The notes below the pieces were generated by a model. It did not search any database, was not told where the DNA came from, and saw only the letters and a program-made list of their open reading frames with translations. Positions 5,175-33,100 of a stretch of 64,000 nucleotides of DNA are shown in pieces; positions within the stretch are counted from its first letter, which is position 1, and the number at the start of each line of letters is the position of its first letter. A program made the position numbers and the translations under genes. The DNA is from Verrucomicrobiota bacterium (lineage in GTDB: Bacteria; Verrucomicrobiota; Verrucomicrobiia; Chthoniobacterales; UBA10450), in NCBI GenBank assembly GCA_003218375.1, contig QHNH01000021.1:1-64000 (forward strand), read 5' to 3'.

Positions 5175-8100
5175 CTATTGGAGGTTATATATCTCGATAA
5201 GCCCGACGCCGGTCGTGTTACCGACCCCGCGCGCCACCGCGGTGTAATTACCTGGTGTAGGGGTGGTAAAGATGGCGCTTTCGCGCGTGTCGCTTGGGGC
5301 GAGGCCATTGGCGACTACGAAGCTGGAGTTGGGATCAGTCGGCCAATCATCGTTCGTGTTGATCGTGGTGCCGCTGGCATCGTGTAACTCCAGGATAGGA
5401 TTCTGCAGCGCATTAGGCACCCCGGAGCTGGTCAGGCTAGGTCCGAGCGCCCGCACCACTATCCGAGGATTGCTTCGATCCACCGGTCCGATGATGAAGC
5501 CACCGATCATCACGTTGTCATTAACATCGACAAATCCGCGCGAGCTTATATTGCCGAGCAGCGAAAGGCTTGCCTGGCTCAGATCGTAGACCTCCACCAA
5601 CCCAATCCCCGTGCCACCGCCGACGCCGCGCACAACCGCCGTGTAATTGCCGGGGGCGAGCGTAGCCACGATGGCTGATTCCAAATCGTTTGTGGGAGCC
5701 ACGCCGCTGGCGATGATCTCGGCCTGTTGCGTGCTCTTCCAGTTATCGTTCGTGGTCGTGGTATTACCGGCGTGCAATTCCAGGATGGGATCGGCCAAAC
5801 GCCCGGCCACCGGAACGCCGTTGCTGGTGATCGACGGTCCGAGCGCGCGCACGATCACCTTTTTCGAAGCGGTGCCAGTGATAATAAATCCGCCGATGAG
5901 CACGTTGTCGCCGGTGAGGACGCGCGCGCGCGTGGAGATATTTTGTAACTGGGCAGGCGTCTTGGGCGGCGTTGGGGTGGGCGTGGGCGCTGTGCAGGCG
6001 GGGTTACCCACCACGCTATAGGTGGCTGGGGGATACGCGTTATCGGTCTGGGCCTTCACGAAGGTATGATCGATGAGCGCAGTCGAGCGTTCCAGAGTAA
6101 CGGTTTGCGGTGTATCGCCGGTAAAGGTCCTGCCGTTAAACCCGCCGAGTAAGTCTCCGGGCTGGGGATTGCCCACCGAAGCCTTGGCAATAAAGATCGT
6201 GATCGTGCCATCGACGTTGAAGTTGCTGGTAGGCAGAGGCACACCCTTTTTCGTTTCTGTCGGCACGCCTACAACCAAGCCTACGACAGCGGTGGCTACT
6301 TCGCCGTACTCGAAGGTAACGTTGCTAGTCGAATCGCTGTTCATGCCGACATAGAATTGCTGCCCTGCCGAAGCGTAAGAGTCCCAAACCATGCGCCAGC
6401 GGCTATTAGGCGGAATCGTGCTGAGATTGGTCACCTTCATCGTGAAAATGAAATTGGCCGTGGACGGCGGCTCACCTATAGCGACATAATCGATAGCCAG
6501 CTGAGGATTCGAATTGGCCGTGTTGCTTTCCGGATGGGTCGGCAGGTTTTGATGAATGATTATGCCCGTGCAGGTATCGCCCAGATAAGGCGCGGAGATT
6601 TCATTGTTAGTGCACGAGCCTCCGACCACATTCACCGCCACGACCTTATAGTAATAGGTCTTGCTCGAGTCGCTTGCGGTCGCGTCGTCGTAGGTGGTCT
6701 GGTTGCCGGGAACGGTAGTGAGCAAGGTCTCAGCATTGCTAACCGTGCTTCTCAGAATTTGATAATTCATAATTCCAGAATTGCCGGTGTCGCCTTCGGA
6801 CCAGGCAAGATGCACCACCGACCCGACGCGACGTTGGGTAATCGCCGGCGCACCCGGAGCTGATGTCGGGCTGGTCGGATCGAAAACGGCCAACATGCGA
6901 CGACCGCTTGACTGGCGGGCGATCGTAGCCGTGGCGCCGTAGCCATTGCCTGTGGCGGTGGCTGCCGCCTGAGCGCAACTGCCGCCAGAACAGCCGTTAA
7001 CGTATCCTACTTCGACACGCCCATGCTTGTCGATCGAGATATCGAAAAAGTCGAGCAGGTTGCGGCAGATGTTAGCGCCGCCGCCGGTCCAGATACAACC
7101 GCGCTGGATAGGCGCGCTCGGGGTGGCATCGGACACCGTCCAACTGGCGCCTCCGTCGAAGGTGTGCGCTACGTAAAGGTGCCAGACGCCGTTAAAAGTA
7201 GCGGCATTCGCGCTGCCGGCCGTAGTAGAGCCATAGAAAGCTACGGCGGCGCGGCCCGCGTCCCCCGCGACCGCGGCGGGATACCTGATGTTTTTCAAAC
7301 CGAGCGCCGAACTGAGATCGACAATATTGTTCCAAGTGCTGCCGCGGTCATCGGAGGTAGCTACCACGAGCGCGCTATCGGCATTAGCGATCGCAAAATA
7401 AACGCGGCCGTTGCTATCGATGCCGGCCGCTGGGTCGCTGTTACCGGCCACCGTGTCCACTGAGTTATTGCGCACGTGGCGAATGTGCCAGGTCACTCCG
7501 TTGTCTTCCGACACAACTACGGCGCCATCGCCACCGCAGTTATTGTTAGGCAGATAGACGGTGCCATCCTTGGGTGAAACTTTAACATGGCCGTGGAGTC
7601 CGCCGCACTCGGTCGTATAAGTCGCGACAATAGGTCCAAAATGCGCGCCGCCGTCATCGCTGCGCAAACAGAAAGCAGAAACCAGATCCTGCGAACAATA
7701 ATAGACCGCGTTTGGATAACCTGCGCCGGTGGAAAGCGGGGCGTGATAAGGACCGCCGCCGACCGTCTCGTGATCGATGCCCGACCCGAGCGGGCCGGAG
7801 CTGGGTATCCAGGTTTGCCCGTCATTGTCCGAAAACGAAATCTTGCACGTAGGTGATGTCGCCGTCAGCTCGGCGGCAAAGACGCGGCCGGTTTGCCGGT
7901 CGGTGAACCCGATCGGATCGGAATCGATCACCTGTGAAGTGGGCGCCGCGCGGTTGCTCCAGGTGGCGTTCACTCCGCCGGTCGGGCAAAGGCTGGCGAA
8001 GTTAATGAACAACGTTTCCAACTCCGATTGGAAGTTAGTCACCCCGCCGATAGCAGTGCTCGACGCGGAATTCCAATTTACCCCGATCGAAGGCTCGCCG

Positions 8101-8753
8101 GCGCCGCGCCCCATGAACTCAACCGTAGGACCAGTTGTAGTAGTAACAGGAGTAAGGATGCCGGGCGCTTCAAAATTCTCGTAGCCTGGCTTAGGACCAT
8201 TATCGACTGTAGCCGGCGGCGGCTGCGGGGGCGTAAGTGAAACCGCGTTGGCAGTCCCAGCGTATTGGTCGCTAGGGACCGTTGCAAAGTAGATAACATG
8301 GACGGTGAACACGCCCACGCCATCCGCGGCAGGATTAATGTGAGCGACTTCCGTGATGCCGGCGCCGTTCCCGGATGAATCTATTATTTTGCCGCTGTTG
8401 GTATCTTTGTGGATAACCAGATCGTAATCGTCCTGTGATGCCGGCGGCGTGATCTTCACCTCGATGCGCCTGCCCGCCGCGGCCCAGTCCGCTATTGTCC
8501 CGGTAACGGTGAGCGTAAAGGTATCGCAGGACACGCCCTCCACGCAGGTGCTTTCACCATTAGCGGCGCCGGTTCCCGTCGCGGTGCCGGTCCACGCCAA
8601 AGCCGGGCCCCCCGTTCCGATATTACCCGAGGCGGGATTGGCCGAATGCAATCGATTACTAAAAGTCGCCAGAACAATCAGGGCGACAGCGCTGATCAAA
8701 AACAGAGTGCCGGCGGTGATGCGGGCGACGGGAGAGATCGCTTTTTTTTTCAT
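5175..8753 (-). CDS. Large secreted sialidase-like/Fn3 protein with two C-terminal NISTR domains
   Basis: 1192 aa. The N-terminus MKKKAISPVARITAGTLFLI plus a hydrophobic core is a signal peptide or anchor. Residues about 45-175 form a beta domain with DYDLVIHKD, like pre-peptidase or CUB-type domains in secreted proteases. About 200-640 is a sialidase/BNR-type region: SFSDNDGQTW, RSDDGGAHFG, VSEDNGVTWH, ATSDDRGSTW, FDGGASWTV are Asp-box motifs. A fibronectin III-like segment (APGAPAITQRR...LAWSEGDTGNSG, about 650-730) and a jelly-roll-like region follow. A TPTPTP linker then leads to two NISTR domains (about 948-1070 and 1071-1192). BNR repeats occur in both glycosidases and non-enzymatic propellers. 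Catalytic sialidase residues were not identified, so activity is open. Confidence 0.8.
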   Translation of the reverse strand: MKKKAISPVARITAGTLFLISAVALIVLATFSNRLHSANPASGNIGTGGPALAWTGTATGTGAANGESTCVEGVSCDTFTLTVTGTIADWAAAGRRIEVKITPPASQDDYDLVIHKDTNSGKIIDSSGNGAGITEVAHINPAADGVGVFTVHVIYFATVPSDQYAGTANAVSLTPPQPPPATVDNGPKPGYENFEAPGILTPVTTTTGPTVEFMGRGAGEPSIGVNWNSASSTAIGGVTNFQSELETLFINFASLCPTGGVNATWSNRAAPTSQVIDSDPIGFTDRQTGRVFAAELTATSPTCKISFSDNDGQTWIPSSGPLGSGIDHETVGGGPYHAPLSTGAGYPNAVYYCSQDLVSAFCLRSDDGGAHFGPIVATYTTECGGLHGHVKVSPKDGTVYLPNNNCGGDGAVVVSEDNGVTWHIRHVRNNSVDTVAGNSDPAAGIDSNGRVYFAIANADSALVVATSDDRGSTWNNIVDLSSALGLKNIRYPAAVAGDAGRAAVAFYGSTTAGSANAATFNGVWHLYVAHTFDGGASWTVSDATPSAPIQRGCIWTGGGANICRNLLDFFDISIDKHGRVEVGYVNGCSGGSCAQAAATATGNGYGATATIARQSSGRRMLAVFDPTSPTSAPGAPAITQRRVGSVVHLAWSEGDTGNSGIMNYQILRSTVSNAETLLTTVPGNQTTYDDATASDSSKTYYYKVVAVNVVGGSCTNNEISAPYLGDTCTGIIIHQNLPTHPESNTANSNPQLAIDYVAIGEPPSTANFIFTMKVTNLSTIPPNSRWRMVWDSYASAGQQFYVGMNSDSTSNVTFEYGEVATAVVGLVVGVPTETKKGVPLPTSNFNVDGTITIFIAKASVGNPQPGDLLGGFNGRTFTGDTPQTVTLERSTALIDHTFVKAQTDNAYPPATYSVVGNPACTAPTPTPTPPKTPAQLQNISTRARVLTGDNVLIGGFIITGTASKKVIVRALGPSITSNGVPVAGRLADPILELHAGNTTTTNDNWKSTQQAEIIASGVAPTNDLESAIVATLAPGNYTAVVRGVGGGTGIGLVEVYDLSQASLSLLGNISSRGFVDVNDNVMIGGFIIGPVDRSNPRIVVRALGPSLTSSGVPNALQNPILELHDASGTTINTNDDWPTDPNSSFVVANGLAPSDTRESAIFTTPTPGNYTAVARGVGNTTGVGLIEIYNLQ

Positions 8754-14742: not shown

Positions 14743-15717
14743 ATGCCCGGCGTTTCTCATCCCGTTGTCCTCCGTTTCCGCCTCGCGGCCAGGCTGCTGA
14801 CGGCAGTGGCCGCGCTCGCGCCCTTCAGTGTCCTGAACGCTCAACAAGTTTCGGTCCAGGACCGGGCGCAATTGTTGCGCAGCTCGACCCCGCCTCCGAG
14901 CGATCCTTATTCTGAGGAAAATGGAGTGGATAACGGCCGGGCTGCGGAAAGCCCGAACGACGCCGATGTCGGCGAACAAGAAATCCTGAAACGGGTGGAG
15001 CGCTACGAACCGTTCACGGCGTCGGTCGCCATCCCGTTTTATTACACGTCGAACGTGGCCCTGGCCCGCAACGGCGAGCAATCCGATGTCCTGGTCGCGC
15101 CGACGGCGGGCGTGACTTATGCGCCGCGGTTTACCCGCACGCTCTACGGCTCGTTCACCGTGCAGCGACAGGAATTTTACTACGATAAATTCACCGCGCT
15201 CAATTTCGGCAGCTTCGATTTCCGGGCCGGGCTTTCTTACCTTCTGCCGAAAGCGCACAACCTCCTCCTGCGCGGCGAATACGATTACAATCGCCTGACG
15301 TTATCGAACAGCTTCAACGGCTTTTTCTCAAACCATTCGATTTTCCTCAGCGCCGAATTGCCGTTCCGGTTCGGGCGGGCGCAGCAGGTGTCGTTAGGCG
15401 CGGACACAAACGTGAGTCTGGGCGCGAACCCGTCCGCGCCGCAGCGCGACGAATTCGACTTCTACGTCGGTTACGCCGTCAGCCTCACCCGGTCGCTTTC
15501 GGTCGGCGCGGTGGGCCGGGTATTCGTGCGCGATTACCGGAGCATCAGCCGCACCGACGTGAGCGAAGTGTTCGCGCTCACGGCGAACTACCGGATCACG
15601 AAAAACTTTTCGGCGGGCGCGGCCACCACCCTCGCCTGGAGCAAGTCGAACAAGAGCGTCTTCGATTACGACGTGGCGAACATAGGAGGCGCTCTTTCCC
15701 TGAGTTTCAAATTCTAG
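14743..15717 (+). CDS. Outer-membrane beta-barrel protein
   Basis: 324 aa with signal peptide (LRFRLAARLLTAVAALAPFSVLNAQ; the N-terminal ATG may lie a few residues upstream of the true one). Residues 30-75 are a polar, Pro/Ser/Asp-rich plug. From about 85 the protein is an alternation of amphipathic strands with Tyr/Phe girdles (FTASVAIPFYYTSNVAL, LYGSFTVQRQEFYYD, LLLRGEYDYNRLTL). It ends in phenylalanine (SLSFKF), the signature of BAM-inserted barrels. The FecR/beta-helix gene begins 6 bp after its stop, so they form an operon. A role as secretion pore or anchor for that product is inferred from the pairing, not from a recognised POTRA domain, which I do not see. Confidence 0.8.
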   Translation: MPGVSHPVVLRFRLAARLLTAVAALAPFSVLNAQQVSVQDRAQLLRSSTPPPSDPYSEENGVDNGRAAESPNDADVGEQEILKRVERYEPFTASVAIPFYYTSNVALARNGEQSDVLVAPTAGVTYAPRFTRTLYGSFTVQRQEFYYDKFTALNFGSFDFRAGLSYLLPKAHNLLLRGEYDYNRLTLSNSFNGFFSNHSIFLSAELPFRFGRAQQVSLGADTNVSLGANPSAPQRDEFDFYVGYAVSLTRSLSVGAVGRVFVRDYRSISRTDVSEVFALTANYRITKNFSAGAATTLAWSKSNKSVFDYDVANIGGALSLSFKF

Positions 15718-15723
15718 CCTGAT

Positions 15724-18700
15724 ATGAAAAGACTTTTGCTATTCGCGGGCGGGGCACTGGGGTGCATGGCGCTGGATGTCGTTTCGGCCAGGGCGCAGGG
15801 CGGGACGGGTAACGTGCTGAAAGAAGCGCGCGTCACCCAGGTGGTGAAAGATGTAAAATTGCTTTCGGGTCAGGCCGAGCCGCGGCCGGCCACGCTGAGC
15901 GATACGGTGCGCGGCGACACCGCCGTCCGGACCGGGGCCGAGTCGCGCGCGGAATTGACCTTCGGCGATCTGACCATCGCGCGATTGGGCGCGAATACGA
16001 TTTTCAGTTTCAACCAGGGCTCGCGGACGGTAGACCTGCGCGACGGCGCGATCCTGTTGCGTGTCCCGAAAGGTTCAGGCGGCGCGAAGATCAACACGGC
16101 CGCCGTCACGGCCGCGATCACGGGCACCACCGTCATCGCGGAATATCATCCGAAATCGTACGCCAAGTATCTCGTCCTGGAGGGGACCATGCGGATCTAC
16201 CTCAAGGGCGTCCTGGGCGAATCGGTCCTGATGGGGCCGGGCCAGATGATGATCCTCAATCCGAATGCAACTCGCCTTTCCGAGCCCGTGGATTTCGATT
16301 TGGAACGGCTCTGGAAGACGTCGCTTTTCAATCTGGGTTTTGCCCGGCCACTCCAGAGCGAACCGTTATTGGCCGACGTCCAGCACGTGCAGCTGGAGAA
16401 AAAAACAGCGGGCGAACTAATCGACACCAACCTGGTGATCTTCGGGCGCGGCACCTTGGTCACGATGACCGACCCGCAATCGTCCGACGTGATCGATCGC
16501 AAAACCGCCGCGGTGACGTTGCCGACGCCCACCGCCACGCCTACGGCTACTCCAACGGCGACGCCCACCGCCACGCCAACCGCGACCCCCACCGCGACGC
16601 CGACGCCGAAACCCACGCCGAGTAAATTCGGCACGCCACCGCCAATCGTGACGTCGGTTCCGTATCCGATTGACAACGGCACCACGATCCAGACCGATCC
16701 CGCGATCACGCGCGGCGGCGTGACTGACTTCGGAAAAATCTATCGTGATGCGGCGCAGGACGGACCATTCTCGGCCTGGGCCTTCACCGCGACTTCACCG
16801 TTCGACAGCACAGCCGGTATCGACTCGCTTTATGGCGGAAACGTTCCTGTAGCAGCGTTCAAGTTCACGGCCCTCCAGCTTGTCGGCAATCCCACGATCT
16901 CCACGGCGAATGGTGGTGCGACTAATCTCGCGCTCATCTCAGTGGGCGCGATGACTTCAGCGCCGGCGGGGAACACGGTGTTCACTTTTGCCGGCATGCA
17001 AAGTGTGCTGCTCGCGACGCAAAATGGGACGATCAATTTGGGGGGGGGTTTTAGTTTTCGAGACATTCCGCTTCTCATCTTTTATGCACGCGGCGCCACC
17101 TCGAATCTCATTCTAGGGGCACCCATCGACGGTGTCTCATCGCTGCGGCTCATTTCGGAAACCGGCATGTTTCTTAACGCGGCGGAAACCGTATCGAATG
17201 GCTCCAACGGCGGCACAGTCCAAGGCATCGCCGGAGGGGAGCTCCATGTGAATGGTCCGATTGAAACGGTGACGCGCCTGGTGCCGGATTCGCCGCTAAC
17301 TTTCTCTGGAGCGGGAGGCCTTGTTTCGCTTTCCGCTCGGGGCGGAACCCTCACGGTCAATTCGCGCATTCAGGTCTCGTTCAATGATCCCGCGGCGGGA
17401 GCGCCCGCCCTGGTTCGCCGGAGTGCGAGCGGCGGCGTGATTGGCCTCGACAGCGGCTTGACGACAGGCACCGGCCTCACGTTAATTTCGACCGCGAGCT
17501 TACTCTCGCTGTTGAATGACGGCGCCCCAGGCCCTGGCGGCAGCATTAGCTTGACGACTCCCGGAAGCGACATCGTCACCAACGGCGCGACCATTCAAGC
17601 GGACCGCGGCACGATCACCATCCAGCAAAGCGCAGCGCCGCCTTCTGGCACCGCGCAGATCACCCTGAACGGCGGCGCGATTAGCAGCGAGACGCTGTTT
17701 GTTTCCTCGCGAGGCGATCTCACGATCGGGACGACTTTGCCGGTGAACCTTTCCGCTGTTACGCTTTCCTTGCTCGCGACGAGAAACCTATCGTGGAGCG
17801 GTGGAACGCTGGTATCAACCGCGAGCGCGTCTTCCGGGAATGCGACCTTGCGGGCCGGAAATGATATTTCGATCACGGGTCGGGTCGATATTGAGCGCTC
17901 AAACGGCGGGATTACCGACGGCCTGAATCTGGTGGTCGATGCCGGTCGCAATCTCCAGGCTAACGGGGTCGGATTTTTCCTCATCACGAACGGCAGCGGC
18001 CTGACCAGCGGAGGAAACATCACTCTCGCATCGGGCGGGACGATGACTCTGGCTGGGAATGCCAGACTTTTTACCGGTGTTTTCTCGGCAAACCAAACCA
18101 ATGGAAGCAACATCGCGATAAGTGCCGGCGGTCTGATCACGACCGAGAATTTGTGGGACCTGGTCCAGGTCTTCGGTCGGACCCTCGAGAATGGGGGGAA
18201 TATCACCATGACGGGTAACGGGTCGTATTTGGCGACTTTCGATGGACTTCAGCTCGATGTCTTTACTTCGGATTTCGCTGATCCAGCCGGCGCCATCACC
18301 ACCGGTGGAAACATCGCACTGACAATAAACGGAAGCCTCACTACCGCGTCGACGGGCACTTTTCAGCTGGCGGTACATAATTCAAACGGCGGCCGGATTC
18401 AAACTGGCGCAAATATCAACTCGACCATCGGCGGCAACGTGACCGCCAACGTGATCAATGTGCAGATCGATAACGCAGCCGGCGGCTTTATCGGCACCGG
18501 AGCGGGCGTGACCTTTACGGTTGCCGGTACGCTCACGACCAACAAAGACGTGGGCGATGCTAACTTTACGATTCTCAACAGCCGCTCCGGCACGTTCGGC
18601 GGCACGATCGGCTCGGATGCATTCATCAAGGTGACTTTGGCAGACACGAATATTGCACGCGATCTGAATGCTTTCATCGACAACGTCAACGGCACGATCG

Positions 18701-20004
18701 GCGGCAGCGGTGGAATGGTTACGCTTCAGATTAACGGCAAACTCGCGGTCACGAGGCGGGTTGATGTTTTCGGCACGCTTAACGTCACCGGCAGCATCAC
18801 GGCCGGCACGCTTTCGGCGACGAATGTGACCGCGCCTGGCATCGCCGTTGGCGCCGGCGGCATCACGCGCTTCTCGTTCCCCAATGAGATCACAGTGAAT
18901 CCACTGCATACGATCACGACAAACGCGCTCACTTCGACCGGCGGCATCAACTTCAACGGACCCGATGTCGATACGCAGCCGGGCTTTGGCCAGTTCAGCG
19001 GTGGTCAGCTCACGATCAACGTGCCGTCGCTGACCTTCGGGCTTTCGGCTGCCGACAACATCCAGGGCCCGGTGACATTTAACGGCGGCGCCACGCCGGA
19101 TACCCGCGCGCCCGGAGACGGCGGAACATTCACGGTGAATGCGACCGGCGCGATCACTGTCAGCTCACCCATCTCGGCGACGACGGGCCTCCAGCCGTCT
19201 GCTTCGGAACCGAACGGCGCGGGCGGCACGGTGAACCTGAATTCAACCGGCGGCACGATCTCGGTAAACTCGCCGATTACGGTTTCCTCGAGCGAACCTG
19301 CCACCGGGGTACCGCGGCGGCACAGCCGATCGGGCGGCAACATCAATCTGCAAAGCAACTCGACCGGTGTCGCCATCAACATCAGCAACACCGCCCAGCT
19401 TCTCTCATTGCTCGAGCCGGCCGCGGCCGGGCCCGGCGGCAAGATCACAATCCTGGCGACCGCCACCGGCAGCCGCATTAACGTGACCGGCGATCCCGGC
19501 TCGGCGGGCACGCCAGGCATCGACACGATTCGGGCGGACAAGGGTTCGGTCGATATCCGGAACACCGGCGCCAACGGCGCGATCCTCCTCAACACGGCCC
19601 AAATCTCTGCGGATACCGTTAAGATCGGAGCACTCGGAGCCAACGGCACTCTTTCCATCGGCGGCGGGCGAATCAATGCGGATACGATTTTGAAACTCTA
19701 CGCCGTCGGCTCCAACGGTTCGGTGACCTTTGTCAGTAACGTGCTCCTGAGTGGCAACAGCATGAAGATCATCGCGGGCAATTCGGTGACGGTTAACAAC
19801 AACGTCGTGGTCAGCGTGGCCAAGCAACCGGCGGACGTGTACGTGCTCGACCCGACCAAGGCCAACTACTCCAACTTCAACGGCGGGAATAATTCAACTA
19901 ACGGCCTGTTCATTATCGACGGCACGGCTGGCTCACCCGTCTCCGGAGCGAACACTCACCTCGGCGTTGCTCCGCCCGCCTTCGGACCGCCTGGCGGTCC
20001 GTAG
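15724..20004 (+). CDS. Secreted FecR-domain protein with beta-helix adhesin-like body
   Basis: 1426 aa, signal peptide MKRLLLFAGGALGCMALDVVSA ending at ARAQ. Residues about 35-190 form a FecR domain (VRTGAESRAELTFGDLTIARLGANTIF, shown by key parts RTGAESRAEL and ARLGANT; then DLRDGAILLRVP and AAITGTTVIAEY). A threonine-proline linker of TPTATP units spans about 267-299. From about 330 to the end the protein is a Gly/Asn/Thr-rich array (GGNITMTGNG, SGGNITLASGG, AGGTVNLNSTGG) typical of right-handed beta-helix adhesins such as filamentous haemagglutinin. There is no visible TPS signal domain and the C-terminus is PPAFGPPGGP without an anchor. Translation is probably coupled to the barrel gene. 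A surface-attachment role is inferred. Confidence 0.8.
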   Translation: MKRLLLFAGGALGCMALDVVSARAQGGTGNVLKEARVTQVVKDVKLLSGQAEPRPATLSDTVRGDTAVRTGAESRAELTFGDLTIARLGANTIFSFNQGSRTVDLRDGAILLRVPKGSGGAKINTAAVTAAITGTTVIAEYHPKSYAKYLVLEGTMRIYLKGVLGESVLMGPGQMMILNPNATRLSEPVDFDLERLWKTSLFNLGFARPLQSEPLLADVQHVQLEKKTAGELIDTNLVIFGRGTLVTMTDPQSSDVIDRKTAAVTLPTPTATPTATPTATPTATPTATPTATPTPKPTPSKFGTPPPIVTSVPYPIDNGTTIQTDPAITRGGVTDFGKIYRDAAQDGPFSAWAFTATSPFDSTAGIDSLYGGNVPVAAFKFTALQLVGNPTISTANGGATNLALISVGAMTSAPAGNTVFTFAGMQSVLLATQNGTINLGGGFSFRDIPLLIFYARGATSNLILGAPIDGVSSLRLISETGMFLNAAETVSNGSNGGTVQGIAGGELHVNGPIETVTRLVPDSPLTFSGAGGLVSLSARGGTLTVNSRIQVSFNDPAAGAPALVRRSASGGVIGLDSGLTTGTGLTLISTASLLSLLNDGAPGPGGSISLTTPGSDIVTNGATIQADRGTITIQQSAAPPSGTAQITLNGGAISSETLFVSSRGDLTIGTTLPVNLSAVTLSLLATRNLSWSGGTLVSTASASSGNATLRAGNDISITGRVDIERSNGGITDGLNLVVDAGRNLQANGVGFFLITNGSGLTSGGNITLASGGTMTLAGNARLFTGVFSANQTNGSNIAISAGGLITTENLWDLVQVFGRTLENGGNITMTGNGSYLATFDGLQLDVFTSDFADPAGAITTGGNIALTINGSLTTASTGTFQLAVHNSNGGRIQTGANINSTIGGNVTANVINVQIDNAAGGFIGTGAGVTFTVAGTLTTNKDVGDANFTILNSRSGTFGGTIGSDAFIKVTLADTNIARDLNAFIDNVNGTIGGSGGMVTLQINGKLAVTRRVDVFGTLNVTGSITAGTLSATNVTAPGIAVGAGGITRFSFPNEITVNPLHTITTNALTSTGGINFNGPDVDTQPGFGQFSGGQLTINVPSLTFGLSAADNIQGPVTFNGGATPDTRAPGDGGTFTVNATGAITVSSPISATTGLQPSASEPNGAGGTVNLNSTGGTISVNSPITVSSSEPATGVPRRHSRSGGNINLQSNSTGVAINISNTAQLLSLLEPAAAGPGGKITILATATGSRINVTGDPGSAGTPGIDTIRADKGSVDIRNTGANGAILLNTAQISADTVKIGALGANGTLSIGGGRINADTILKLYAVGSNGSVTFVSNVLLSGNSMKIIAGNSVTVNNNVVVSVAKQPADVYVLDPTKANYSNFNGGNNSTNGLFIIDGTAGSPVSGANTHLGVAPPAFGPPGGP

Positions 20005-28888: not shown

Positions 28889-29992
28889 ATGCGCTCATTT
28901 GTTCTCGCGATTATGCTGCTGGCCACTGCGGCGTTGGTTCGGGCGCAGGACGCTGCTTCGACCCCTTTCCAGGCCAGGACGCCAGCCGTTTCCGAAGAGA
29001 CCCCGACGCCAACGACAAAATCGAAGCCCACGCCGACCGCGACCGCGAAACCTTCTCCAAGTGCAATAGTCAAACCGCTCGCCAGCGTCACGCCGGAGCC
29101 GGTCGCGACCGCAACGCCTTCAGCCGCGCCTACCGAAACCGAGACCCTGACCCTGGCCCCTTCGCCTCTTGAAGCGGTCACGCCGATGATCATTGCGTCG
29201 CCAATCCCAACGCCGCGGGTGGTCCCGACCGCGACCGCCACCGCGACCGCGAAACCGCCAATCACTTTTCCGACTGTTAAACCACTGGCTACTTCAACCG
29301 CGAAACCGATGGCCACCTCGACCGCCCGCCCGGGGGCGACCTTAACGCCGAGACCGATCCCAAGTCCGTCCGCGACCTTCACCCCGAAACCAACCGCGAC
29401 TGCTACTGCAACGGCCAATCCTTCGCCGAGCCCGACGCCGAAACCCCGTCCAACTCCGTCGCCCAAGCCAACTCCGACGCCGAAACCGAGTCCAACTCCG
29501 TCGCCCAGACCAACTCCGACACCGACCCCTAAGCCAACCCCAACGCCGACTCCGAAGCCGTCACCAACCCCGAAGCCCACACCCACTCCCGCCCAATCCT
29601 CGGCCCCGGATGATTCAATGACGACGAATATCAAGGAGCTGGAATCCCGCTGGGAAGCTTCGCTCTTGAGTCACGATACTTCGGCGATCGAGAAAATCGT
29701 CGCCGAGGACTTCATTGGCACTTCCTCGAGCGGCAAGACCGGCGACAAAACGACGTTGCTGGCCGAAGCGAAACGGGACACCAACACCTACACGTCCGCC
29801 GTTTCGAGCGACATGACGGTGCGGATGTTCGGGCCGAGCGTCGCCGTCGTCACCGGTATCGCTAAGGAGACCGGGAAAACGAAAGCCGGCAAGACATTCA
29901 CGCACAGCTATCGGTTCACCGACACCTGGGTGGAGCGGAACGGCGAATGGCAGTGCGTCGCCGCGCACGCCATGGCGTTGCCGAAGAAGTAG
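28889..29992 (+). CDS. Secreted NTF2-like protein with long Thr-Pro-rich linker
   Basis: 367 aa. ATG 28889 is preceded by GGAG at a good distance and gives a signal peptide MRSFVLAIMLLATAALVRAQ; an upstream in-frame ATG at 28856 does not. The middle (about 35-245) is a low-complexity region of Thr, Pro, Ala, Lys, Ser, with TPTPKPTPTP units, likely a surface spacer. The C-terminal 120 residues (about 247-367) are an NTF2/DUF4440-like cone: LESRWEASLLSHDTSAIEKIVAEDFIGTS and HSYRFTDTWVERNGEWQCVAAHAM (shown by parts ELESRWEAS and DTWVERNGEWQCV). DUF4440 domains often bind small molecules, but no ligand is visible. Opposite-strand frames here are mirror artefacts of the linker. Confidence 0.75.
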   Translation: MRSFVLAIMLLATAALVRAQDAASTPFQARTPAVSEETPTPTTKSKPTPTATAKPSPSAIVKPLASVTPEPVATATPSAAPTETETLTLAPSPLEAVTPMIIASPIPTPRVVPTATATATAKPPITFPTVKPLATSTAKPMATSTARPGATLTPRPIPSPSATFTPKPTATATATANPSPSPTPKPRPTPSPKPTPTPKPSPTPSPRPTPTPTPKPTPTPTPKPSPTPKPTPTPAQSSAPDDSMTTNIKELESRWEASLLSHDTSAIEKIVAEDFIGTSSSGKTGDKTTLLAEAKRDTNTYTSAVSSDMTVRMFGPSVAVVTGIAKETGKTKAGKTFTHSYRFTDTWVERNGEWQCVAAHAMALPKK

Positions 29993-29996
29993 CGCT

Positions 29997-30096
29997 TCTT
30001 CTGTAGCCGTTCTTCTGTAGCCGCTTCGCTATGCGAAGCGTGAGCTGATGCGATGTCGAACGCCGAGCGGCCCACAGGGCCGCTGCTACAGAAGAA
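29997..30096. repeat. CTGTAGCCGC-family palindromic repeat, copy 3
   Basis: CTTCTTCTGTAGCCGTTCTTCTGTAGCCGC (the arm is partly duplicated), then GCTTCGCTATGCGAAGC, GCGGCCCACAGGGCCGC and GCTACAGAAGAAGC. It follows the Thr-Pro protein and precedes TreS. Confidence 0.85.
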
Positions 30097-30146
30097 GCAA
30101 TCGTCCGATTGCGCCGCCGTGATTGTTGCGCCAACTGTGTAGCCTC

Positions 30147-33100
30147 ATGTCGAACGCGACGCAGGATCCGGCCGTGGACGCGCTTTGGTACAAAGACGCG
30201 GTCATCTACGAGCTGCATGTCAAAACGTTTCACGACAGCGACGGCGACGGCATCGGCGATTTCCGCGGCCTGATCGAGAAGCTCGATTACCTCCAGGAAC
30301 TCGGCGTTACCGCTCTCTGGCTCCTGCCGTTTTATCCATCACCCATGCGCGATGACGGCTACGACATTGCCGATTATTACGACGTGAATCCGAACTTCGG
30401 GACGCTCGATGATTTCAGCGCCTTTCTCGCCGCCGCCCACGAGCGCGGGCTGCGCGTCATCACCGAGCTGGTGATTAATCACACGTCGGACCAAAACCCG
30501 TGGTTCCAGAAATCGCGCCGGGCCGCGCCCGGTTCGCGCGAGCGGGAGATGTATGTCTGGAGCGATACGCCGGAGAAATACAAGGACGCGCGCATCATCT
30601 TCAAAGACTTCGAGACTTCGAACTGGTCGTGGGACCCGGTCGCGAAAGCGTATTACTGGCACCGTTTTTATTCACACCAGCCCGACTTGAATTTCGATAA
30701 CCCGGAGGTGCACGAAGCCGTCGAGAAAGTGCTCGATTTCTGGCTGAGCATGGGCGTCGACGGGCTCCGGCTCGACGCGGTCCCGTACTTATATGAGCGG
30801 GAAGGAACGAGCTCCGAAAATTTGCGCGAGACCCACGAATACCTGGTGAAGTTGCGCGCGCACGTGGACGACAAATTCAGCGGCCGCATGTTGCTCGCGG
30901 AAGCGAACCAATGGCCCGAGGACGCGGTCGCCTATTTCGGCAAGGGCGACGAGTCGCACATGAATTTCCATTTTCCGCTCATGCCGCGGATGTTCATGTC
31001 GCTCCAGATGGAGGACCGCTTCCCGATCATCGATATCCTGGAACAGACGCCGCCGATTCCCGAGACCTGCCAATGGGCGATGTTCCTGCGCAACCACGAC
31101 GAGCTGACGCTCGAGATGGTGACCGATGAAGAGCGCGATTACATGTGGCGCGTTTACGCGAACGATCCCACCGCTCGCATCAACCTCGGCATTCGTCGCC
31201 GCCTCGCGCCGCTCCTCGCGAACAGCCGCCGCAAAATCGAGCTGCTCAACATCCTCCTCTTCTCCATGCCGGGCACGCCGGTCCTCTATTACGGCGACGA
31301 GATCGGGATGGGCGACAATTTCTATCTCGGCGATCGCAACGGCTGCCGAACCCCGATGCAATGGAGCCCCGACCGCAACGCGGGCTTCTCCAAGGCGAAT
31401 CCGCAGCAGCTCTACCTGCCGATCACGATCGACCCCGAGTATCACTACGAAGCGATCAACGTCGAGAACCAGCAGAAGAACCTTTCGTCGTTGCTTTGGT
31501 GGACCCGCCGCGTCATCGCGATGCGGAAAAATTTCCGTGCCTTCTCCCGCGGCTCGCTCGAATTCCTTTTCCCGGAAAACAACAAGGTTCTCGCGTTTCT
31601 GCGCCAGCACGAGGACGAGACGATCCTCGTCGTTGTCAATCTGTCGCGGTTCTCCCAGGCGGCCGAGCTGGACCTGTCCCGCTTCGCCGGTTGCGCACTG
31701 ATGGAGGTTTTCAGTCAGAATTATTTTCCGCCGATCAGGAAATCGTCGCCTTACGTCATCACGCTCGGTCCGCACTCCCATTACTGGTTTGTCCTCCGCT
31801 CGGAAACGGCCGCGTCGGTCGCGTCGAAGGAACGCAAGATCCCGATGTTGGGTTCCGCGCCGACCGTGGCCGCGCTGCTGGACAATGGCCAGCGGGGGCG
31901 GATCGAGCGCGAAGTATTGCCGCCGTACATTCGCAATTGCCGCTGGTTCGGCGCCAAGGCGCGAACGTTGCGCGAGATGCGGATCGCGGAGGAGATTCCG
32001 GTCTCGGAGAAGAAGGGCGCCGCCCAAATCTGGTTCGTAGAAATCAGTTACCTCGACGGACCCACGGAGACCTACGCGGTTCCGGTGCAGATCGCACGAG
32101 ACGATGCCGCCCGCGCAATCGAACGCTCCGCGCCGCATGCCGTGATCGCTCGGCTGCATAGTGACGGCGATGCCATTTTGCATGACGCCGTCTACGACGA
32201 AGCATTTCGCAAGGAACTCTTCACCCTGATGACGGCCGGCCAGACCGCGCGCGGGCAGAAAGGTAATATCGTCGGCCTAACGAGCAGCGCTTTTAAGAAA
32301 ACGCGAGGCCTGCCCGCTTCCCAGGTGCTCAGCGCCGAGCAAAGCAATTCGTCGATGCTCTTCAACAACAAATTTTTCCTGAAACTTTTTCGAAAACTCG
32401 AAGACGGCGTGAACCCGGATGTTGAAGTCACGCGTTTTTTGACCGAGCGCGCGCAGTTCCCGAACGTTCCCGCGTTTCTTGGCGCGATCGAATATCGCCG
32501 CACCAAGACCGAGCCCACGGTCGTCTGTCTGCTCCAGAGCGCTGTCGCCAATGAAGGCGACGCCTGGACGCTGACGCTCGACGCCGTCGGCCGGTATTAC
32601 GAACGCGTCCTCACCCGCAAAGCCGATCTGCAAAACCAGACCACGCCGCCCGGCCCGCTCCTCGAAGAACTGATCGGTGGCGTTTATCGTGAGAAAGCGA
32701 AATTGCTCGGTCGCCGCACCGGCGAGTTGCATCGCGCTCTTGCTGTCAGTTCCGACGACCACGCTTTCGCGCCTGAGCAATTCAACGCCATGGCGCAACG
32801 CTCCGTTTACCAAAATATGCGCGCCTCCTTGCGGCGCGCGTTTGCCCTGCTCGAAAAGAAATTACCCGCGCTGCCGGACGCTTTTCGCGACGAGGCCGCG
32901 CAGGTCCTCGCCTCGGAAAAGAAAATTCTGGCGCAGGAACAGCGTATTCTCGATCGCCGGTCGAACGCGACCAAGATCCGGATTCACGGCGATTATCATC
33001 TCGGCCAGGTCCTCTATACCGGAAAAGATTTCGTCATCCTCGATTTCGAAGGCGAACCGGCCCGCGCCCTGGGTGAACGAAAGCTGAAGCGCTCCGCCTT

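Follow-up and report, generated by a model that had tools for sequence, protein, structure and literature searches.

Barrel and FecR/beta-helix gene pairs of soil Verrucomicrobia as candidate outer parts of CHASE2-type signalling enzymes

CHASE2 cyclases and kinases occur widely, and the route by which they receive signals from outside the cell is poorly known. The main worked example, in the sections of the published accounts used here, is NsrA of S. meliloti. Could a gene pair for an outer-membrane barrel and a long FecR/beta-helix protein be another such route, or is it a device for export? The question is raised by a window of 64,000 nt (GCA_003218375.1, contig QHNH01000021.1; the genome is labelled G000). 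If barrel-FecR pairs are the outer halves of CHASE2 enzymes, signal reception becomes a testable question in several phyla, and the large surface-type proteins of soil Verrucomicrobia acquire a function.

The first-pass annotation described the locus as a barrel and, 6 bp on, a protein of 1426 aa made up of a FecR domain, a Thr-Pro linker and a beta-helix body, and this build is confirmed (Table 1). The neighbours examined encode an RNase D-like nuclease, a metallo-hydrolase, a LysM/TPR protein and a ThiF/rhodanese protein. A scan for promoters and terminators gave a signal close to shuffle level.

Table 1. Features of the barrel-FecR/helix pair, in window positions.
Feature	Position	Strand	Basis
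Outer-membrane beta-barrel ORF P0001, 324 aa, BBP2_2-like, C-terminal Phe	14743..15717	+	Profile match and AF2 model
P0001 signal-peptide-like N-terminus	14743..14844	+	Sequence, cleavage site inferred by eye; helix 7-24 in model
P0001 pre-barrel motif D-x-G-x-Q-x-I-L-K, residues 75-83	14965..14991	+	Short helix preceding strand 1
P0001 12 predicted transmembrane strands, residues 91-323	15013..15711	+	AF2 model
FecR/Thr-Pro linker/beta-helix protein P0002, 1426 aa	15724..20004	+	Pfam and structure prediction
P0002 signal-peptide-like N-terminus, residues 1-25	15724..15798	+	Sequence, inferred by eye
P0002 FecR domain PF04773, residues 68-155	15925..16188	+	Pfam E 6e-10
P0002 Thr-Pro low-complexity linker, residues 260-301	16501..16626	+	Sequence composition
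P0002 TPS-secretion-domain-like predicted fold, residues 313-710	16660..17853	+	Structure match, without sequence support
P0002 internal repeat copy 1, residues 503-717	17230..17874	+	Local self-alignment
P0002 internal repeat copy 2, residues 1140-1357	19141..19794	+	Local self-alignment
P0002 motif LLSLLxxAAxGPGGK, residues 1226-1240	19399..19443	+	About 190 residues ahead of C-terminus

A structure prediction for the barrel, as suggested at first pass, gives 12 strands (mean pLDDT 71, with low confidence in the N-terminus) and an autotransporter-like fold: the top structural matches are the translocators AaaA (Z 21.4) and NalP (Z 20.6), and FapF likewise scores high among solved structures. 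P0001 matches BBP2_2 (PF10082, a putative beta-barrel porin family) at 23.9 bits, for a curated cut-off of 23.7, and 26 of the 36 barrel rows in our alignment A2 (36 of the 39 rows listed) match this family at E up to 1. All 36 rows share the pre-barrel residues D75, G77, Q79, I81, L82 and K83, and the motif is still discernible in most divergent and class-level barrels. The barrel had been described as lacking POTRA, and indeed the domain search found no POTRA or ShlB match in P0001, nor among the 12 families listed for the 36 rows. Searches by sequence against solved structures returned nothing useful for either protein, and neither the barrel nor the FecR segment had a match in tblastn of plasmids.

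In P0002, the beta-helix is predicted confidently from about residue 300. The FecR part is modelled with low confidence; it matches the fold of the PupR signalling domain (Z 10.9), and FecR is present in all 22 aligned sequences (alignment A3, 22 of 23 sequences). The linker varies in length among relatives, with pLDDT mostly around 50 or lower. The two repeat copies align locally with a score of 266, against 109 for the best of 300 shuffles, and a motif resembling LLSLLxxAAxGPGGK is shared by 22 of the 36 helix proteins or fragments. The helix protein varies in length from 679 to 2197 aa, and in 7/7 relatives compared the helix body is conserved less than FecR and the barrel, which fits an exposed helix. 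The remark that a FecR domain at the head of a large adhesin makes an unusual build holds only locally: the build recurs throughout the bacterial family.

The first-pass annotation had tied its idea to conservation of the pair in relatives, and the pair is conserved. A same-strand FecR or helix gene lies near the barrel in 43 of 45 named relatives, so the pairing is not due to chance; the other two loci are located at contig ends. At many loci where FecR is directly 3′ of the barrel, the spacing is 2-8 bp. A first scan of genome contigs with P0002 gave no confirmed relatives. P0001 has a match in 51 and P0002 in 68 of the 83 family genomes. The co-occurrence check also proposed at first pass gives a clear result: a P0002/FecR match is found in 51/51 barrel-bearing genomes versus 17/32 barrel-less ones (Fisher 5e-8). 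The barrel and the FecR/helix protein are inherited together as a pair in soil Verrucomicrobia. In many family members, the partner of the barrel is a short, helix-less FecR protein.

Does P0002 carry a two-partner secretion (TPS) domain? By sequence it does not, as the first-pass annotation had said. PF05860 is found neither in P0002, nor in the 22 aligned sequences, nor in G000. Comparing the post-linker region with 25 verrucomicrobial TPS domains (a profile built from 25 of the loci returned by a TPS-domain search), hhalign in local, global and permissive modes gives a probability of 0.3% or less. In both directions hmmsearch reaches at most 15.9 bits, versus 8.0 for reversed and 8.6 for shuffled sequences, while body windows reach 10.0. 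The displayed HMMER alignments span generic helix repeats alone. These hhalign and hmmsearch results give no support for sequence kinship with true TPS domains, and any TPS likeness is claimed from the fold alone. By predicted fold the statement may not stand: among the solved structures listed, the region behind the linker best resembles TPS secretion domains, with HMW1 at Z 27.2 (280 aligned, 2.5 A), EtpA at Z 26.8 and HxuA at Z 19.7, while the best non-TPS helix among the matches listed has Z 19.2. G000 has no ShlB/TpsB (PF03865), which 5 of the 83 family genomes do have, and it shows a single sub-cut-off POTRA_2 match, inside an 822-aa frame.

The evidence for signalling comes from gene neighbourhoods. 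For divergent barrel matches in the family, 15/20 have a CHASE2 match no more than 2.5 kb away (chance about 0.4% per locus), a count from which the CHASE2 matches of genomes without a barrel are mostly left out, and to which the trios L185-L187, chosen after their barrel and CHASE2 matches were known, are not added. Class-level relatives have barrel-FecR-CHASE2 trios. At the strong loci outside the family, CHASE2 is found by the barrel-FecR genes in 5/7, and a Ser/Thr kinase gene in the other 2/7. Presence and absence of CHASE2 and barrel across genomes are weakly linked (p 0.011; 0.13 at completeness of 85% or more), too weakly for us to keep them as evidence.

No CHASE2 cyclase or kinase adjoins the window pair itself. 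The window-type module adjoins a CHASE2 cyclase in 3 of the 46 genomes with a window-type barrel, lying on opposite sides of the cyclase gene at two loci (L084 vs. L180). Of the cyclase loci examined, 21/26 are near PheS, MurC or CarA and have no barrel; L178 and L195, CHASE2 loci outside that neighbourhood, are counted among the 26. In the barrel tree (where each locus appears once and barrels shorter than 270 aa are omitted), the cyclase-adjacent window-type barrels are nested within the window-type clade, and therefore it is the module that moved to the cyclase. G000 keeps an orthologous CHASE2 cyclase elsewhere, outside the window (G000:C27, about 29465-31600), in the same cyclase clade as those beside window-type modules. 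We infer that this cyclase is probably the partner of the window pair.

We give a slightly better than even chance to the reading that the pair is a split barrel plus FecR-helix receptor, forming the outer part for a CHASE2-type signalling enzyme. The P0001 barrel would sit in the outer membrane, and the FecR domain of P0002 would remain periplasmic. The likeliest path by which the Thr-Pro linker would take the beta-helix outward is through the barrel or alongside it; the helix is probably outside the cell, where it could reach out as a long arm for contact or ligand binding. An external binding event might then alter the barrel/FecR unit through a putative FecR-barrel contact, and an inner-membrane CHASE2 adenylate cyclase, presumably touching FecR, would read that change and make cAMP, if the signal runs inward. 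The receptor would also be a case of a TPS-like helix handled without TpsB. Points against the receptor reading are the absence of a CHASE2 gene next to the window pair and its rarity beside window-type barrels, the weak presence/absence link, the smc02177 result and the much larger alphaproteobacterial barrels described below, and the low model confidence in the FecR part and the barrel's N-terminus. The fuller proposal, that a POTRA-less 12-strand barrel moves a TPS-fold helix across the outer membrane without TpsB, and that the helix, held by a periplasmic FecR domain, signals contact from outside to the inner-membrane CHASE2 cyclase, all as one secretion-signalling device, is one we hold to be rather doubtful.

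Alternatively, the barrel may be a dedicated exporter of the beta-helix, TPS-like but 12-stranded and POTRA-less, with FecR as a periplasmic stop or tether and no signalling at all. The TPS-like predicted fold behind the linker speaks for this, as does a barrel that is nearest to autotransporter translocators, with FapF also high; on the other side, a match to autotransporter barrels is to be expected of many barrels with 12 strands. Because G000 lacks ShlB, another exporter would be needed. Also in favour, FecR fragments match the LapA retention module weakly (6/10, E 0.002-0.08, all far below cut-off). But the TPS likeness lacks sequence support, CHASE2 or kinase genes adjoin related pairs, and the barrel also has helix-less FecR partners, so we regard export with no signalling as unlikely. 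The idea of an export module gains from the two predicted folds, but it is probably not the whole story, given the CHASE2 neighbours, the helix-less partners and the fusions of FecR to barrels by CHASE2 cyclases described below. It is probable that the two proteins work as a sensor at the cell surface, and not only as an export device.

FecR domains are periplasmic in known systems, and the signal peptides here look ordinary; if the helix, whose export is putative, stayed inside, P0002 would be a long periplasmic rod and the barrel an ordinary porin or anchor, in the operon by chance. This is improbable given the co-inheritance of barrel and FecR, the TPS-like predicted fold, and a helix protein that diverges strongly in sequence and length while FecR and barrel are conserved. 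Classical FecI-FecR-FecA iron signalling, with an anti-sigma factor and a TonB-dependent receptor, is suggested by FecR (PF04773) beside an outer-membrane barrel and by the PupR fold match. However, the Pfam search finds no TonB-receptor plug or signalling domain in P0001, there is no sigma factor among the neighbours examined, and P0002 has no cytoplasmic anti-sigma domain since its FecR follows a signal peptide. We dropped this very improbable reading on the position of FecR and the missing sigma factor next door.

How does the pair compare with known systems? As in two-partner secretion (type Vb), a barrel and a long beta-helix protein are encoded together and the post-linker fold is predicted to be TPS-like. 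A type Vb TpsB has a ShlB barrel and POTRA, whereas P0001 has neither; the type Vb TPS domain matches PF05860 and directly follows the signal peptide, whereas P0002 has no such match and places FecR and the linker first. In autotransporters (type Va), passenger and barrel are one polypeptide, and here they are two ORFs with the barrel first; the likeness is the predicted 12-stranded P0001, an unspecific one, as other 12-strand barrels match too.

The receptor reading has closer relatives. In S. meliloti, according to the parts of the accounts used here, the outer-membrane barrel NsrA is required for the CHASE2 cyclases CyaK/CyaD1/D2 to respond to an outside protein (PMC7529298, PMC13001267), and a FecR gene numbered next to cyaD1, smc02177, is unneeded for perceiving the signal tested (PMC5498481). 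We observe FecR-TPR-barrel fusions as single proteins beside CHASE2 cyclases in Methylocystis, Rhizobium and S. meliloti; the last agrees with NsrA in its length and in where its barrel lies and, by this analogy, is probably NsrA. The NsrA-CyaK system thus resembles our proposal in joining an outer-membrane barrel to inner-membrane CHASE2 cyclases, with FecR near the N-terminus of the S. meliloti protein. The NsrA kind is one protein with TPR repeats, a barrel part of about 600 residues and an adjacent CHASE2 gene, whereas the window pair is two proteins with no TPR, a 12-strand barrel, a long beta-helix and a CHASE2 gene that is not adjacent. P0001 is far smaller than the alphaproteobacterial barrels, which we liken to it by build, not by barrel sequence.

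FecR-CHASE2 gene clusters of Campylobacterota and Burkholderia also encode a FecR envelope protein, together with a cyclase or histidine kinase of the CHASE2 type; a small separate barrel or a beta-helix extension is absent from the portions of their descriptions used here (PMC9239204, PMC5192318). Paracoccus and Shinella operons encode a TPR plus barrel-like protein, a FecR-linker-TbpB/FHbp-like protein and a CHASE2 cyclase. In them, as in the window pair, FecR is followed by a low-complexity linker and a surface-type domain, and an envelope protein is encoded alongside, together with a CHASE2 cyclase in the operons; that domain is small and barrel-like (on weak sub-cut-off Pfam matches), whereas in P0002 it is a beta-helix. 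FecR and an outer-membrane barrel recur as a unit, as two adjacent genes here and as one fused protein in Alphaproteobacteria.

The first-pass annotation described a barrel ORF followed after 6 bp by a 1426-aa protein with a FecR domain, a Thr-Pro linker and a beta-helix, and that anatomy is borne out by the ORFs, the PF04773 match, the linker and a confidently predicted helix. Protein 2 has a signal-peptide-like N-terminus and an internal repeat (residues 503-717 vs. 1140-1357) that scores 266, when the best of 300 shuffles scores 109.

Features of the barrel/FecR-helix gene pair
Feature	Position	Strand	Basis
Protein 1 (324 aa)	window 14743-15717	+	ORF
Protein 2 (1426 aa)	window 15724-20004	+	ORF, 6 bp from protein 1 ORF
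FecR domain (PF04773) of protein 2	residues 68-155		profile match
Thr-Pro linker of protein 2	residues 260-301		

Matches to protein 2 occur in 68 of the 83 family genomes compared, and matches to protein 1 in 51. All 51 barrel genomes have a protein 2/FecR match vs. 17 of the 32 barrel-less ones (Fisher 5e-8), and for genomes at least 85% complete the counts are 31/31 vs. 11/18 (p 4e-4). Judged by its named relatives, the window genome is that of a soil verrucomicrobium of the Chthoniobacterales type. Run against named genomes, the barrel alignment picked out 45 loci, 43 of which have a same-strand FecR, post-linker or helix gene close to the barrel; in the other two (L116, L141) the barrel is located at a contig end. 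Thus, the pair is real, and the two families whose co-occurrence the annotation proposed to test are found together across relatives. One subgroup, which includes Candidatus Udaeobacter (L122), has the reversed order, with FecR and FecR-helix genes 5′ of the barrel. Many loci carry short FecR proteins (about 250-390 aa), either in addition to the helix protein or replacing it, and complete helix proteins range from 679 to 2197 aa; therefore, the helix is an optional and variable component of the module.

Helix proteins (window 19399-20004 and relatives) end in one of two ways: a tail rich in Gly/Asn/Pro (NYSGFGGNNSTTG...PPGGP), or the motif LLSLLDGAxPGPDGK and then a short basic tail. Two Acidobacteria-labelled contigs (L113, L146) with FecR genes and barrels of the window type are likely misbinned verrucomicrobial contigs. 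Window 5178-8753 encodes a 1192-aa secreted-type protein with a Pro-Thr-rich stretch and a BNR_2 match below cut-off. A further FecR protein of the genome (L102:7582-9222, G000:C22; 546 aa, FecR domain in the second half) has neither a barrel nor a CHASE2 match near its gene.

Protein 1 matches the BBP2_2 profile barely over the cut-off, and a profile search of it finds no POTRA or TonB-receptor match, in agreement with the barrel having been annotated as lacking POTRA. Its predicted structure, which the annotation called for, is a 12-stranded barrel (mean pLDDT 71; below 50 for N-terminal residues 22-80) with a short helix at residues 76-82 ahead of strand 1. The motif DxGxQxILK at this helix has six positions invariant in 36/36 aligned barrel rows, and it is discernible in most divergent barrels. 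The top structural matches are autotransporter barrels (AaaA Z 21.4, EspP 21.3, NalP 20.6), and COG4313 (Z 20.2) and FapF (Z 18.2) also score high. For a predicted model, this ranking is expected of many 12-stranded barrels, and we draw no functional inference from it.

The model of protein 2 covers residues 21-720. Its FecR part resembles PupR at Z 10.9 and, at Z 10.4, a putative anti-sigma factor. Model residues 293-690 come closest to TPS secretion domains, namely those of HMW1 (Z 27.2, 280 aligned, 2.5 A), EtpA (26.8) and HxuA (19.7); phage tailspike and other helices rank below (Z 19.2 or lower, rmsd 3.6 A or more). The statement that the passenger has no TPS domain is right by sequence comparison, which gives no support for TPS membership; any TPS likeness is one of predicted fold. 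Neither ShlB nor TPS PF05860 is found in the window genome. In 7/7 relatives compared, conservation of the helix body is lower than that of both FecR and barrel, and in 6/7 this also holds for the post-linker region, a divergence that fits exposure.

Barrel matches occur in 15/288 genomes phylum-wide, the window genome included. Cross-tabulating separate barrel and CHASE2 searches (same contig, within 2.5 kb), we find a CHASE2 hit near 15/20 divergent barrels (21-36% identity) and near 3/46 window-type barrels (44% identity or more), where chance predicts about 0.4% per locus. Seven loci (L171-L177) are strong hits from outside the family; all of them have barrel-FecR, adjoined by a CHASE2 gene in five and, in L174:8691-15991 and L176:8704-13056, by Ser/Thr protein kinase genes, which suggests that the signalling output is exchangeable. 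CHASE2 outputs also differ: L099, L171, L175 and others have cyclases, whereas L095 has a histidine kinase.

Two CHASE2 cyclase genes are present in the window genome. One (L179) adjoins PheS-PheT-CarA, a neighbourhood that its orthologue shares throughout the family; the other (L178:2746-8116) adjoins a gene for a 1082-aa CHAT-TPR protein. Among 26 cyclase loci examined, with PheS, PheT, CarA and MurC named by eye from sequence, 21 are near PheS, MurC or CarA without a barrel, two combine PheS with the barrel module (L084, L180), one is a short contig that carries the cyclase together with a barrel (L083), and two are sited elsewhere (L178, L195). The cyclase stands between PheS and module in L084, and the module between PheS and cyclase in L180. 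In the cyclase tree, L179 falls within the PheS-locus clade and the L180 cyclase groups with others of its genus. In the barrel tree, cyclase-adjacent barrels are nested deep in the window-type clade, in a five-row group (100/100) with L127, a barrel locus that adjoins a PNPase gene. This nesting and the opposite sides in L084 and L180 are most simply explained by a move of the barrel-FecR module to the cyclase's side, perhaps more than once. The pattern, drawn from three draft genomes, is good evidence that module and cyclase work jointly.

We class the module as a probable CHASE2-linked receptor that is split into barrel and FecR proteins and has gained the TPS-fold helix as an outer arm. 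FecR would probably lie in the periplasm, the barrel in the outer membrane, the helix at the cell exterior and the CHASE2 cyclase in the inner membrane, with putative contacts between them; in such a model the linker could be routed through the barrel. An export-only function is possible, and it has most of its anatomy in common with the receptor. Against a receptor counts smc02177, a FecR gene numbered beside cyaD1, which was dispensable for the signal tested, according to PMC5498481.

Can a receptor of this sort be recognized elsewhere? The limited collection of papers searched contains no description of a verrucomicrobial barrel-FecR-helix module. FecR-CHASE2 clusters are on record in Campylobacterota and Burkholderia (PMC9239204, PMC5192318). 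Paracoccus and Shinella have operons (L245:2353-7998, L246:1090-7260) in the order TPR/barrel-like protein, FecR-linker protein with weak C-terminal TbpB/FHbp-like matches, and CHASE2 cyclase, possibly a case of a Slam-like exporter within the same signalling plan. Ruegeria and Ensifer plasmid loci have FecR with a CHASE2 cyclase and no barrel seen, an Azospirillum brasilense plasmid locus has a cyclase-domain gene and no FecR close by, and a further plasmid locus has FecR and no cyclase among the matches listed.

Plasmids of Methylocystis, Rhizobium and S. meliloti encode, next to a CHASE2 cyclase, one protein of some 1190-1230 aa that combines FecR with TPR repeats and a C-terminal part resembling an outer-membrane barrel, with Phe at the end. 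Replicon labels look wrong for the S. meliloti strain of L254 (CP090105.1) and L247 (CP090106.1): its 1.66 Mb record named pSymA matches another strain's pSymB, and the record named pSymB has 3.72 Mb. The S. meliloti protein fits as a candidate NsrA, an identification of ours; the sources give the NsrA barrel part as residues 600-1200 (PMC7529298) and CyaK as SMb20776 (PMC5498481), and state that the response to an outside protein requires both outer-membrane NsrA and inner-membrane CHASE2 cyclases (PMC7529298, PMC13001267). In these plasmid loci, FecR, TPR and the barrel-like part are fused in one protein beside the CHASE2 cyclase, whereas the window has two proteins.
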